Below are positions 19,671 to 43,902 of a stretch of DNA of 43,902 bases, piece by piece (position 1 is the first letter of the stretch; each line of letters starts with the position of its first letter). Made by a program: the position numbers and the translations under genes. The stretch is from Candidatus Gastranaerophilales bacterium (GTDB lineage: Bacteria > Cyanobacteriota > Vampirovibrionia > Gastranaerophilales > Gastranaerophilaceae), in assembly GCA_944325835.1 (NCBI GenBank), contig CALVBO010000012.1, forward strand, positions 1-43,902, in the 5' to 3' direction. The notes under the pieces are model-generated. The model worked only from the letters and a program-made list of their open reading frames with translations, made no database searches and was not told the DNA's origin.

Positions 19671-19946
19671 TTATACGTCATAAAATTGAAAATCATTGCC
19701 CAATTCATCTTCCACAAGCGCTACCAATGTCGAAAGCTTTATCTGCAACGCTTCCGCTATTTTCCATAGCGTCACAAACTTTACATCAATACTTCCTTTC
19801 TCTACACGGCTGGTATTCCCAACATCAAGGTCATACTCGTGCGCAAACTGATTGATTGAGCATTGTAAATTATTTTGCCTTAAATCTTTAATAATTGCAC
19901 CCAAGGTTTGCGCCAATTTGACCGTTTTTTCATCTTTTTGTTGCAT
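19671..19946 (-). CDS. XRE-family helix-turn-helix regulator
   Basis: This 91-residue protein is a compact XRE/Cro-type DNA-binding protein. After a short leader, TLGAIIKDLRQNNLQCSINQFAHEYDLDVGNTSRVEKGSIDVKFVTLWKIAEALQIKLSTLV shows the five-helix fold: the SINQFAHEYDL helix 2, the NTSRVEKGS recognition turn and the LWKIAEALQI helix 5. An upstream extension to 20024 is possible but overlaps the start of the divergent pilin gene and is low complexity, so I start at 19946. A TTGTAT-18-TATAAT promoter (19994-19965) fits on this strand. The neighbouring palindrome overlaps its -35 box, so autoregulation and control of the pilin gene are likely. This is inference from the layout. Confidence 0.85.
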   Translation of the reverse strand: MQQKDEKTVKLAQTLGAIIKDLRQNNLQCSINQFAHEYDLDVGNTSRVEKGSIDVKFVTLWKIAEALQIKLSTLVALVEDELGNDFQFYDV

Positions 19947-19969
19947 AGATACATTATATGTGTTATTAT
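19941..19969 (+). promoter_or_regulatory. Promoter of pilin-like gene at 20013
   Basis: TTGCAT at 19941-19946 and TATTAT at 19964-19969 are separated by 17 bases. Transcription would start near 19976, about 37 bases before the ATG at 20013. The -35 box overlaps the start codon of the divergent regulator, so the two transcription units are closely interlocked. Confidence 0.6.
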
Positions 19970-19994
19970 AGAGGTAGTTATTGTATATATACAA
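19965..19994 (-). promoter_or_regulatory. Promoter of the XRE regulator
   Basis: Read on the minus strand, TTGTAT (19994-19989) and TATAAT (19970-19965) are 18 bases apart. The transcript would start near 19958, about 12 bases before the ATG at 19946, giving a very short leader without a clear Shine-Dalgarno site. Confidence 0.6.
19981..19994. promoter_or_regulatory. Perfect 14-bp palindrome, probable operator
   Basis: TTGTATATATACAA is its own reverse complement. It overlaps the -35 box of the regulator promoter and lies just after the predicted start of the pilin transcript. A dimeric XRE protein bound here would block both promoters. The regulator encoded 35 bases away is the obvious candidate. 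Binding is inferred. Confidence 0.6.
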
Positions 19995-20012
19995 TAAAGA
20001 AAGGATAGAAAA

Positions 20013-20954
20013 ATGAACAAACAAGGATTCACTATGGCAGAAATTTTACTCTCGCTCACTATTATCGGCGTTGTCGCGGCAATAACTTTGCCAAGTTTGA
20101 CAGGCAACATCAACGAACGCACATGGAACACCCAAAGAAAAGCTCTTTATGCTCGTTTTAGCCAAGCAATAGCGCTAATGCCGTCAATAAACGGATATGG
20201 CACTTTAGAAGAAGGGGATCCAAATAATATAGCAGAAACCTTTATTACAGCAGGACTTGCAAAAGTGCTTAAAATTAACAATATATGTAATCATGAACAT
20301 CTCACTGATTGCGGAATTCCATCTAAAATAACAACGACTGGCAATTCCGTATACAATGGCTTCCCGGAAACTTTAGGGGCATATAATTCATTATACCTTT
20401 CTACATCAGTAGAAGGAACTATTTCCCTAATAGATTCCAAGACGGCAGCATTTGAAACCCAAAATGGAGAAAGTATCGTTGTTTTTTATAATCCACAATG
20501 CAGATATGACAACTCCAACAGCACTACAACTAATATGTTTGCTCAATATATGATATGTGCAAATTTTGTGTTTGATTTAAACGGAAACAAAGGACCAAAT
20601 ACTTTTGGTAAAGATATGGGAGCAATAACAGTACTATACCCGACAGATTCGTCTGTTGTTATGCCAATACCTACACCAAAAGATGCTGGTAGAGCACAAC
20701 ATATTAATGCAGCAAAGCTCTGCAAATCTGAAAATAATGAAAGATTACCTAATAAAGAAGAATTAGCGTCTTTATTTATTAACAAAGATTTTTGGAATTT
20801 AACAACCGATGGCGAACCGGTTTACTGGTCAAGTTCACTTATAACGAGGAATGGAACTACCTATGCATGGGATATAAGAAGTGATAGCGGATTATTAAGA
20901 TCTTATGTACCACGAAATAGCAATTCATATGTAGTCCGTTGTGTTAAACGCTAA
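20013..20954 (+). CDS. Pilin-like protein with type III prepilin signal and lectin-like C-terminal domain (copy A, intact)
   Basis: This 313-residue protein starts MNKQGFTMAEILLS: a short positive leader, Gly at -1, Phe at +1 and Glu at +5, the substrate pattern of type IV prepilin peptidase. The hydrophobic helix LTIIGVVAAITLPSL follows. The next ~35 residues (INERTWNTQRKALYARFSQA) are identical in the copies at 35266 and 42854 although the codons differ. The C-terminal part has RLPNKEEL (about 244-251), YWSS (271-274), AWDIRSDSG and the ending VRCVKR, which resemble FISUMP/DUF1566-type domains with a C-type-lectin-like fold found in adhesins. I infer a surface pseudopilin with a variable binding domain. 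GAAAGGA lies eight bases before the ATG. Divergent from an XRE regulator; closed by a strong terminator. Confidence 0.85.
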   Translation: MNKQGFTMAEILLSLTIIGVVAAITLPSLTGNINERTWNTQRKALYARFSQAIALMPSINGYGTLEEGDPNNIAETFITAGLAKVLKINNICNHEHLTDCGIPSKITTTGNSVYNGFPETLGAYNSLYLSTSVEGTISLIDSKTAAFETQNGESIVVFYNPQCRYDNSNSTTTNMFAQYMICANFVFDLNGNKGPNTFGKDMGAITVLYPTDSSVVMPIPTPKDAGRAQHINAAKLCKSENNERLPNKEELASLFINKDFWNLTTDGEPVYWSSSLITRNGTTYAWDIRSDSGLLRSYVPRNSNSYVVRCVKR

Positions 20955-35265: not shown

Positions 35266-36327
35266 TTATCTTTTTACACACCAAACACCGGTCGTGGAAT
35301 ATGTACGTGCGAATTTATAGGTATAACCACCAACAGGATCTATAAATAAACCATACCCTGTTTCAGGAACGTGTGAAGACCATTTCCAGTTCGCAGAGAT
35401 CCCAGATAATTGCCTATTATAAATTAGCGAATATAATTCTTCACGAGATGGAACTCTTGTTTCTGGATCATTAGCCTTACATGCTTGACCTGCATTCAAC
35501 TGAGAAACATTGTTAGAAGCCACCGACAAGGCCGGCATCGGTGCCACAACCATGGGATCAGTAGGATAAATTGCCGTTATGAATCCAATATCTTTTCCAA
35601 CGGTATTTGGCCCTTTAGAACCATTTAAATCATACACAAAATTTGCACACATTTTAGGCCATATATAATAACTGCCCTTCTCATTCATATCCGCCATACA
35701 CTGTGGATTATAATAAACTAAAATACTCTCACCATTAGAAGTTTCAAAAGCTGCGGACTTAGTATCAAGAACAGACGCATAACTTGGAGCATTCCAGCCT
35801 GTAGCACTTAAAAACATGCTATTTAATTCACTCAATGTTGTTGGAATAGAACTAATCAAACTCCCATTAGGTGCATTAATTTGAGAAGGAATACCACAAT
35901 CTTCTAAATGTTCATTATCACAAATATTATTTATCTTCAAAACCTTGGCAAGTCCAGCTGTGACAAAGGTTTCAGCAGCAGTATCCACCGCATCACCTGC
36001 GCCAGAAGAACTTTCTTCAGTTAATGTTCCATAACCATTCAAAGACGGCATAAGAGCTATAGCCTGTGAAAATCTTGCATACAAAGCCTTTCTTTGCGTA
36101 TTCCAAGTCCGCTCATTAATATTCCCTGTTAAACTTGGTAACGTTATCGCCGCTACAACGCCAATTATCGTCAGGGATAAGAGAATTTCCGCCATGGTAA
36201 AGGCACTCATACAGACTATACCCTTAACTGTCATTCCGAACTTGTTTCGGAATCTGTCCAACGACACTGATAGCTCGCACCGCTGAACAGACCCTGAATC
36301 AAGTTCAGGGTGACAGATACTTTTCAC
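35266..36327 (-). CDS. Pilin-like protein, copy B; reading frame separated from its leader by a G11 tract
   Basis: The pilin part begins SAFTMAEILLSLTIIGVVAA and continues with the same N-terminal block as copy A. The C-terminal domain has TRVPSREELYSLIYN and ends GVWCVKR, so it is a divergent member of the same lectin-like fold. As assembled, the open frame starts at a GTG at 36327 without a ribosome-binding site, and its first ~35 residues (CHPELDSGSVQRC, RNKFGMT) are translated palindromic repeats. The conserved start with good RBS is at 36458, in a different frame because of the G11 tract at 36415-36425. One extra G would join the two into a 397-residue ORF. The residue before FTMAEI is Ala, not Gly. 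A start at the ATG of MSAFTMAEI is possible but has no RBS. Confidence 0.7.
   Translation of the reverse strand: MKSICHPELDSGSVQRCELSVSLDRFRNKFGMTVKGIVCMSAFTMAEILLSLTIIGVVAAITLPSLTGNINERTWNTQRKALYARFSQAIALMPSLNGYGTLTEESSSGAGDAVDTAAETFVTAGLAKVLKINNICDNEHLEDCGIPSQINAPNGSLISSIPTTLSELNSMFLSATGWNAPSYASVLDTKSAAFETSNGESILVYYNPQCMADMNEKGSYYIWPKMCANFVYDLNGSKGPNTVGKDIGFITAIYPTDPMVVAPMPALSVASNNVSQLNAGQACKANDPETRVPSREELYSLIYNRQLSGISANWKWSSHVPETGYGLFIDPVGGYTYKFARTYSTTGVWCVKR
36230..36316. repeat. Composite palindromic element inside pilin-like gene B
   Basis: Two palindromes, TTCCGAA/TTCGGAA (36234-36252) and CCCTGAA/TTCAGGG (36292-36310), are flanked by TGTCA at the left and TGACA at the right. On the coding strand it reads as CHPELDSGSVQRC...FRNKFGMT. 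Translated palindromic units like this recall the Rickettsia palindromic elements, which insert in frame into genes. Confidence 0.75.
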
Positions 36328-36330
36328 ATT

Positions 36331-36372
36331 ATCGCTCTGTGCCTCTGCTCGCTCGCGCAGTTCAAAATGACA
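36331..36372. repeat. Dispersed repeat, orientation 1 (about 42 bp)
   Basis: The core gcctctgctcgctcgcgcag occurs here and, as its reverse complement, at 43819-43859. Here the unit reads out as CHFELRERAEAQSDN in the leader of pilin-like gene B; at 43819 the opposite orientation reads as LVPLLARAVQHDN in gene C. Confidence 0.75.
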
Positions 36373-36404
36373 ATTATAGGCTTTCGACTCCTCAATTGTG
36401 CCTG

Positions 36405-36458
36405 TTAAAAGAGGCCCCCCCCCCCTGCTATGATGCTTACACTTTTAATTTCTTTCAT
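36405..36458 (-). CDS. Leader ORF of pilin-like gene B (17 residues, off-phase form)
   Basis: ATG 36458 has the family RBS GAAAGGA seven bases upstream and a promoter at 36540-36568. The assembled reading is MKEIKSVSIIAGGGGLF then TAA. The MK...SVSI part matches the leader at the left edge of the window (1-32), so this start is likely authentic. The four Gly are encoded by the G11 tract. With 12 G the frame runs without a stop into the pilin coding sequence ending at 35266. With 10 G it stops after a further eight codons. Confidence 0.6.
   Translation of the reverse strand: MKEIKSVSIIAGGGGLF
36415..36425. repeat. C11/G11 homopolymer between leader and pilin domain
   Basis: Eleven C on the plus strand (G on the coding strand) follow codon 11 of the leader ORF starting at 36458. 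The frame downstream is open in the pilin frame only for 12 G (or 9, 15). It is the candidate switch of pilin-like gene B. Confidence 0.95.
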
Positions 36459-42853: not shown

Positions 42854-43902
42854 TTATCGTTTTACACAACGGACAGCTTTTTTCCAGTCCCGCGGAGAAA
42901 AATTAAAGACTCCGGAAGGAATTCTGTAATCCCAGGCATTAACTCCGGAGGTCGAATTATACTCCACAGTTGACGACCAATAAGTCTGTGCGTCAAGGTT
43001 TAATAAAAGATTATTACACACTATTGCGGCAGCTTCTTCAATATTTGGCAGTCTGGATTCAATATCATAGTCAGAACAAGCTTTTGCAGCATCTTCCTGC
43101 GTAAAGCTACTTCCGCCGGAGATGTTATTTGCCAGGGGCAGCGGAGCCACTACAATCGTATCTGTTGAATATAATGCAGTAATAAAACCTATATCCTTAC
43201 CGACAGTATTAGGTCCTTTTGTTCCATTCAAATCGTATATAAAATTGGCACAAATATCCCCCTGCATATAATGAGAACTATTTGTATTAATATCTTTAAC
43301 CTTACAATTAGGATTATAATAGACTGCTATACTCTCCCCGTTAGCCGTTTCAAATGCAGCAGCCTTCGTATCCGGCTGGGAATAACTATAACCATAACTG
43401 TCAGAACCGTTAAACATGCTGTTTAATCCAACAAAAGTCGAAGGAAAAGTATTTATTGTTGAACCATTCAACGCTGTTAACTTAGAAGTTATACCACAAT
43501 CCTCAAGGTGTTCATTGTCACAAATATTGTTAATTTTAAGGACTTTCGCAAGACCAGCTGTTACAAAGGTTTCAGCGGCAGTATCCACTGCGGAAGTGGA
43601 AGAATCACCCTCGGTCAATGTACCATAACCATTTAATGCGGGCATTAGCGCAATTGCCTGAGAAAATCTTGCGTATAAAGCTTTTCTCTGTGTGTTCCAA
43701 GTCCGTTCATTAATATTACCTGTCAAACTCGGCAACGTTATCGCCGCCACAACGCCAATAATCGTCAGAGATAACAGGATTTCCGCCATTGTAAAGGCCG
43801 CTCGCAATGACGAAAAATTGTCATGCTGAACTGCGCGAGCGAGCAGAGGCACTAAGCGAAAACCACGCTTTTCGCGGTGCCGTTTTTCGCGAGTCGAGCA
43901 AG
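42854..43902 (-). CDS. Pilin-like protein, copy C (5' end outside window)
   Basis: The mature part begins RAAFTMAEILLSLTIIGVV, with the same N-terminal block as copies A and B and the same AAETFVTAGLAKVLKINNIC segment as copy B. The C-terminal domain has SRLPNIEEAAAIVCNN, YWSSTVEYN, AWDYRIPSG and ends VRCVKR. Upstream of the pilin start the frame stays open for 36 further codons to the window edge, passing through the dispersed repeat at 43819-43859 in the opposite orientation from copy B. A GTG at 43852 is the first possible start in the window, but the family leader would be further upstream, so I mark it partial. Ala precedes FTMAEI, as in copy B. Single gene before alaS. Confidence 0.75.
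   Translation of the reverse strand, partial: CSTREKRHREKRGFRLVPLLARAVQHDNFSSLRAAFTMAEILLSLTIIGVVAAITLPSLTGNINERTWNTQRKALYARFSQAIALMPALNGYGTLTEGDSSTSAVDTAAETFVTAGLAKVLKINNICDNEHLEDCGITSKLTALNGSTINTFPSTFVGLNSMFNGSDSYGYSYSQPDTKAAAFETANGESIAVYYNPNCKVKDINTNSSHYMQGDICANFIYDLNGTKGPNTVGKDIGFITALYSTDTIVVAPLPLANNISGGSSFTQEDAAKACSDYDIESRLPNIEEAAAIVCNNLLLNLDAQTYWSSTVEYNSTSGVNAWDYRIPSGVFNFSPRDWKKAVRCVKR
43819..43859. repeat. Dispersed repeat, orientation 2 (about 41 bp)
   Basis: This is the reverse complement of the unit at 36331-36372, sharing gcgcgagcgagcagaggc. It is placed in the translated leader of copy C immediately before the mature pilin start. Confidence 0.75.

Follow-up and report, generated by a model that had tools for sequence, protein, structure and literature searches.

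The window analyzed here, a stretch of 43,902 nt, is contig C12 of a Candidatus Gastranaerophilus genome (G000; 1.95 Mb, 99% complete) and carries three pilin-like genes, with open reading frames confirmed at 20013–20954 (forward strand), 35266–36327 (reverse strand), and 42854–43852 (reverse strand). Copy A (20013–20954, forward) encodes the leader MNKQG, an invariant N-terminal segment, and a C-terminus that resembles Lcl_C and C-type lectin domains. A prepilin peptidase is predicted to cut copy A before the phenylalanine encoded at 20028, and a ribosome-binding site (GAAAGGATAG) lies directly 5′ of the gene on the same strand, where no poly-G tract is found. The mature part of copy B, from FTMAE to the stop codon, occupies 35266–36201 on the reverse strand, and its body differs from the cassette that a sister species (genome G002) has at this locus. 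The copy B leader (36202–36458, reverse) is composed of an ATG at 36458–36456, the peptide MKEIKSVSIIA, a G tract, and a repeat-derived linker that is open in the FTMAE frame. This tract of 11 G (36415–36425, reverse) is a predicted slippage switch; the leader is out of frame as assembled, and 12 G would restore the frame. The mature part of copy C lies at 42854–43795 (reverse), and its leader, also repeat-derived, is partial (43796–43902, reverse): it is open in frame and runs off the contig end, and the start codon and any G tract fall beyond the window. The starts of copies B and C listed in the earlier note have to be replaced, as they are GTG codons picked mechanically within a leader that is longer; the likely start of copy B is the ATG given above, which is preceded by a ribosome-binding site (RBS) and lies 257 nt before FTMAE.

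Profile searches place these genes among the prepilins to different degrees. The N_methyl profile is over its cut-off in copy A and below it in copies B and C, the TIGR02532 prepilin domain is over its cut-off in copies A and C, and the family carries the prepilin motif (G/A)^F-x3-E together with a hydrophobic helix. The divergent neighbor of copy A (19671–20024, reverse) is a small Cro/C1-type helix-turn-helix regulator that scores below the Pfam threshold, and DNA resembling the copy A upstream region plus pilin is present in three other genomes (G003, G004, and G006). The divergent regulator, the lack of a G tract, and the similar DNA in these genomes suggest for copy A the possible role of a regulated core pilin. 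At the copy A locus, contigs C29 and C21 of the sister-species genome end.

Gastranaerophilales are non-photosynthetic relatives of cyanobacteria that are common in the gut and are mostly known from assembled or single-cell genomes. The earlier note took the three copies of the window for a repertoire, which is an understatement. A six-frame search of the G000 genome found about 90 near-full-length copies and additional fragments, and 88 full-length copies were extracted, amounting to about 4% of the genome at about 950 bp per copy. The three window copies are a sample of this larger, dispersed family, whose poly-G tracts, DGR (diversity-generating retroelement), and cassette exchange, described below, had also escaped the earlier note. 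Among the other genomes of the genus (seven in all with G000), five of six have at least 76 family matches and the remaining one (G005) has 18; the sister-species genome, searched in full, has about 80. Outside the genus, at least 76 matches each (E ~1e-8 to 1e-12) were obtained in G009, G013, G015, G017, and G027, which represent further genera and one further family within the order, and these matches mostly reflect the pilin N-terminus. Large pilin-like families seem, from such matches, to be widespread across the order. Many contigs of G000 start or end inside a repeat-built leader or pilin start (e.g., C1:25, C14:68, C18:76, C34:25, C40:2, and C41:84), which indicates that short-read assemblies of such genomes break there and that copy numbers are probably underestimates.

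The N-terminal part of the family is conserved in sequence but not in codons. Copies A, B, and C agree at 54–55 of the first 56 residues from FTMAE, in line with the near-complete sharing first described for them. The wide codon divergence that had been reported between copy A and copies B and C is real, but it is not limited to copy A, since B and C differ as well: over the same 56 residues, identical codons number 19 for A/B, 22 for A/C, and 31 for B/C. Across the 88 copies, the 44-residue mature start takes eight forms, with 60 copies identical and 19 more differing at residue 44 only, and the corresponding first 132 nt exist in 88 distinct DNA versions, with no pair at 98% identity or above and a maximum of 91.7%. 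Fourfold-site identity over residues 1–56 is 0.41, which is near random (0.255 expected). On these sequence comparisons, chance is excluded as a source of N-terminal conservation with divergent codons. Gene conversion was considered separately as the source of the identical N-terminus and was rejected in view of the fourfold identity and the 88 distinct DNA versions.

The test of selection along the alignment that the earlier note proposed was carried out. The pN/pS ratio is 0.03 over codons 1–22 and 0.08 over codons 23–44, and it rises to 0.5–0.82 across the last 90 codons, with 0.82 over codons 287–308; these ratios are rough, as pS is near saturation (~0.7), and because of this saturation the tip values make no claim of positive selection. 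Within the best explanation given below, the shared N-terminal helix probably experiences extreme purifying selection, as every variant has to be compatible with a single machine. The C-terminal fixed points that had been named for the three copies proved broadly correct, the principal ones being RLPN-EE, W(S/T)S, and CVKR.

The C-terminal domain scores 29.4, 13.4, and 23.0 bits against the Lcl_C Pfam profile in copies A, B, and C, respectively, below the gathering threshold of 34.9. A lectin-like fold had been proposed in the earlier note, and structure prediction bears this out, as the predicted C-terminal domain is Lcl/C-type-lectin-like. The AlphaFold model is that of the sister-species target of a diversity-generating retroelement (DGR), was made with seven input sequences, and is confident in the C-terminal domain only; full-length models are usable for this domain alone and make no statement on the middle domain. 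In this predicted structure, the domain matches the C-terminal domain of Legionella Lcl (8q4e) with a Z score of 10.9 and an rmsd of 1.4 Å over 90 residues, and further matches are Bdellovibrio Bd2740 (Z 10.1) and many C-type lectins (Z 7–8.7). The Lcl C-terminal domain is a glycosaminoglycan-binding adhesin domain (PMC11162425), and the modeled fold is consistent with a tip that binds a ligand. The pilus assembly genes whose absence would have spoken against a pilin are all in the genome, namely, T2SSE/PilB-type (PilB/PilT) ATPases, prepilin peptidase, and PilC/T2SSF. The family appears to be type IV-pilin-like, and both a pseudopilin and a modular type IV pilin would fit.

The prevalent 5′ layout of the family is RBS, ATG, about 30 nt, G11–18, linker, and FTMAE. 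A poly-G tract, scored as a run of at least nine G within 700 nt upstream of a pilin, is present in 56 of the 88 G000 copies, usually about 30 nt past the RBS-ATG and mostly with 12–14 G; lengths cover G11–18 plus one tract of 30, and several copies without a scored tract are cut by contig ends. Thirteen copies have an in-frame RBS-ATG and no G tract. Linkers (from tract to FTMAE; median length, 207 nt) are mosaics of interspersed repeats, with 93% of their length recurring in other linkers and 66% occurring outside pilin units. In G000, 55 of 56 linkers are open in the pilin frame (1 and 0 in the other frames), as are 44 of 46 in the sister species (0 and 1); these counts are only partly independent because of the shared repeats, although each mosaic still keeps the pilin frame. 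The leader between the RBS-ATG and the tract is likewise open in 47 of 49 cases, and with tracts as long as assembled, 9 of 49 ATGs in G000 and 10 of 45 in G002 share the frame of the pilin. That about four-fifths of the starts are out of frame as assembled and that the linkers are open in the pilin frame points to phase variation by poly-G. Among orthologous pairs with a tract in both species, the tract length differs in 10 of 19, and the ON/OFF state differs in 4 of 17 pairs of known phase, where tract lengths are those of the assembly consensus and the comparison is one between species. The G tracts are predicted to slip in living cells.

A short leader, for which about 30 residues is the usual limit, is found in about ten copies such as A, and leaders of 16 to about 180 residues are predicted for most poly-G copies. 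The long leaders may be cleaved like the short ones; if the peptidase cuts before F1, no linker is left in the mature protein, which would explain the free linker content. Some leaders (such as L042, L052, L054, and L055) contain a ~48-nt module (GCCCGGCTGAGCCGG...) flanked by two TTTACCATGGC(A) copies and read FTMAARLSR...SAFTMAE, and the module has the look of a small insertion at the FTMA codons, accompanied by a duplication like that of a target site.

G12 tracts were also surveyed irrespective of the pilins. On contigs C1–C6, 44 distinct tracts were found: 36 are upstream of a pilin that is read in the same direction, 4 run off a contig end, and 4 are elsewhere. Four non-pilin tracts of G13–14 were noted, at positions 907, 3727, and 5512 of L184 (G000:C5:121–126 kb) and in L183 (G000:C3:90.9 kb). 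Three of them are inside or before paralogous acyltransferase-like frames (AlgX/AlgJ-like by eye), and the fourth is within a frame resembling a glycosylation or motility-accessory gene; these are probably further phase-variable surface modification genes.

Comparison with the sister species reveals a different kind of change. Orthologues (at least 80% identity over 600 nt) exist for 36 of the 88 G000 copies among the 62 G002 copies compared. About 11 loci combine a downstream flank that is ~89–99% identical with a pilin body from another member of the family; this count includes the weaker case of the locus pair A65/B14, with only 77% over the whole unit. Identity usually resumes at the stop codon or within about 20 nt of it. 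The copy B locus retains its flank, its leader, and the first 324 nt; the swap begins at +325 and ends about 20 nt short of the stop codon. The downstream flank of copy C is 97% identical in the sister species, where a different pilin is found, and when the copy C body was searched against five sister genomes, matches longer than about 130 nt did not exceed 72%.

A single DGR is present in G000, on contig C9 and thus outside the window, and its parts include Avd, TR, and RT. The sole RVT_1 match in the genome adjoins a bAvd gene, the TR, and one pilin copy (L017). The RT open reading frame contains the motifs GLPIGNLTSQ and YVDD, and its nearest named relatives are from Candidatus Gastranaerophilus phascolarctosicola and other Gastranaerophilales; the Avd is over the cut-off for bAvd (PF22296) and below that for DivGenRetAVD (NF033474, E 2.3e-12). 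The TR and VR, 138 nt in length with the VR at the 3′ end of the target, are 92% identical, and 10 of their 11 mismatches are at TR adenines; the pooled figure for five loci of the genus is 46 of 52. G000 and L094 (probably G002) have an identical TR and different VRs. The RT is present in all seven genomes of the genus, and the DGR, the TR, and the target copy are conserved across it. The target also has a G tract, with 15 G in G000 and 12 in G002. G005 has 18 family members only, yet it has a DGR in which 19 of 20 mismatches fall on TR adenines, and family size and DGR presence are uncoupled in this case. In most of the five genomes from outside the genus listed above, a close DGR RT was not found. 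A Gastranaerophilus-type DGR with a pilin also occurs in JAMPIJ010000002.1 (L096), from a bin titled Fusobacterium sp. that is probably misnamed.

A search of G000 with the TR matched only the TR itself and one VR, and window copies A, B, and C are not current targets. In the other 87 copies, variability is likewise highest at the columns that TR codons AAC/AAT render mutable (3.78 vs. 2.28 bits, p = 1.4e-5). At these AAY columns, however, the third-base scar expected of a DGR is absent from the other copies (C/T, 0.588 vs. 0.574), K/E/Q/M/W, which are beyond the reach of AAY templates, make up 15%, and the similarity of these copies to the TR does not exceed that of a reverse-complement control. 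The shared variable columns are best read as one binding face that is varied by two routes. The DGR as the mutator of all copies was rejected on the basis of the single VR, the control-level TR match, and the missing scar; this rejection is limited to current activity, since synonymous sites near saturation leave ancient archiving possible.

Copy number, conservation, leader frames, between-species tract lengths, TR/VR asymmetry, cassette differences, and the predicted fold are all read from the sequence, and the explanation that we consider quite probable for them is, as proposed step by step here, a phase-variable repertoire of type IV-pilin-like lectin adhesins. Each family member would be made as a prepilin with a leader of 4 to about 180 residues, which prepilin peptidase would cut before F1 of FTMAE. 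The invariant 44-residue helix would then enter the membrane and pack into a filament or pseudopilus built by the PilB/PilC-type machinery of the genome, and the Lcl/C-type-lectin-like C-terminal domain would be displayed and bind something outside the cell. In most copies, the poly-G tract about 30 nt past the start codon would slip at replication, such that a minority of the variants is translated in any one cell. In one copy, the DGR rewrites those codons of the lectin tip that are templated by adenines, and over evolution other variants would replace cassettes at fixed chromosomal loci. Several points run counter to this explanation: prepilin peptidases do not usually act on leaders that exceed 100 residues, the tract lengths are those of assembly consensus, the shared repeats make the linker frame counts partly dependent, the AlphaFold models are unreliable beyond the C-terminal domain, pS is saturated, and a VR is found in one copy only. 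A wider reading, which we put forward tentatively and hold to be possible rather than probable, is that one scaffold joins about 56 poly-G switches, DGR hypermutation of a single member, and cassette exchange at fixed loci, that the DGR-linked gene is an innovation locus that seeds the wider family over time, and that synonymous divergence of the N-terminus is perhaps favored as a bar to recombination between copies.

Other explanations of the same data can be weighed against this repertoire. In one of them, minor pilins or pseudopilins have simply expanded within this lineage, the G tracts and leaders are neutral debris, translation starts internally near FTMAE, and the DGR is incidental. Interspersed repeats are indeed common in the genome, with 66% of linker length also found outside pilin units, multi-copy families with a related N-terminal pilin part exist in other genera of the family, and some linkers have ATG codons near FTMAE. 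However, neutral debris sits poorly with linkers that are open in the pilin frame only (55 of 56, against 1 and 0), a result repeated in a second species, with the uniform RBS-ATG-leader-G tract order and its open leaders (47 of 49), with the concentration of G12 tracts at pilin genes, and with a DGR, TR, and target copy kept across the genus, and we regard this explanation as unlikely. A silent-cassette system like Neisseria pilE/pilS, in which most copies are storage and are expressed via recombination into one or a few loci, would agree with the differences between sister species at syntenic loci, in particular the swap of the copy B body alone between conserved ends, and with the approximately 80% of poly-G copies that are out of frame as assembled. 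Against this, the copies are full-length with their own RBS and start, 13 of them have an in-frame start and no G tract, and identity over the first 132 nt reaches 91.7% at most; because no pair attains 98% there, donor/recipient homology of the Neisseria kind is missing. Such cassettes are distinctly unlikely, and as the main mode they were rejected on account of the separate RBS-ATG, the full-length copies, and the diverged 5′ DNA.

The variability of the TR-mutable columns in the other 87 copies and the presence of the RT in all genomes of the genus would also be expected if the whole family were DGR output, either because the TR acts on many copies in trans or because the copies archive what the DGR-linked gene once produced. 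The single TR-matching VR in the genome, the control-level match of the other copies, the third-base frequencies, and the 15% K/E/Q/M/W make this very unlikely. The remaining explanation keeps the anatomy and changes its benefit: variation would serve escape from host antibodies or from pilus-binding phages, with the lectin fold as a tolerant scaffold. Evasion of immunity or of phages is a common role of phase-variable surface proteins, and three further G12 tracts are at acyltransferase-like surface-modification genes. DGR targets of this fold, in contrast, are generally binding proteins, and cellular targets carry adhesion or carbohydrate-binding domains (PMC8144416); the closest solved structure is also that of a glycosaminoglycan-binding adhesin domain (PMC11162425). 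Evasion as the benefit is conceivable though rather doubtful, and it is compatible with ligand binding.

A literature search found no paper that mentions a DGR or phase variation in Gastranaerophilales, and in the papers found on this order, the pilus genes reported amount at most to a basic pilA/B/C/D set (PMC5877343). The phase-variable adhesin repertoire proposed here looks like a large, previously undescribed surface-variation system; about 4% of the genome is given to one predicted surface-lectin family with a stochastic switch at most copies, and this pattern is kept across the genus. If the proposal is true, the family would rank with the largest bacterial families of phase-variable genes and would show a DGR at work inside a paralogous repertoire, and what Gastranaerophilales stick to would become directly testable via binding screens of single tips.

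Several known systems are similar in part, with differences in each case. In the poly-G contingency loci of Campylobacter, Neisseria, and Helicobacter, a 5′ homopolymeric G tract sets the frame of a surface gene and is placed between the start codon and the body, as it is here; unlike in those loci, about 56 tracts occur here in one paralogous family, and a repeat-built linker that the peptidase should remove is present. Neisseria pilE/pilS also combines a conserved pilin N-terminus and a variable C-terminus with cassette change at a locus, but its donors are promoterless and share conserved DNA, whereas the genes described here are full-length and separately started and have strongly diverged synonymous sites. 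The modular type IV pilins PilB and PilC of Streptococcus sanguinis likewise have a class III pilin N-terminus and a C-terminal adhesion or glycan-binding module (PMC8179133, PMC9934059); they have a single gene per module, whereas about 88 paralogues share one invariant N-terminus in Candidatus Gastranaerophilus, with a module that is Lcl/C-type-lectin-like and with most copies behind poly-G. DGRs with DUF1566/Lcl_C targets resemble the present one in Avd, TR, RT, an adenine-mutated 3′ VR, and a C-type-lectin-fold gene (PMC6642488, PMC8144416), and "putative pilin structures" are listed among DUF1566 targets (PMC6642488). Unlike in those systems, the target here is one of about 88 paralogues, the rest of which vary at the same columns and are not currently targeted, and it also has a poly-G tract. 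The Legionella Lcl C-terminal domain (8q4e; PMC11162425) is similar in predicted tip fold; Lcl itself is a collagen-like adhesin with no pilin anchor, and the Pfam Lcl_C score of the family is below the gathering threshold. Our literature search found no paper that combines these components in a family of such size. Modular pilins, DUF1566 DGRs, poly-G loci, and Lcl-type adhesin domains are each known, and it is their combination at this family size that, judged by the literature searched, appears to be new.
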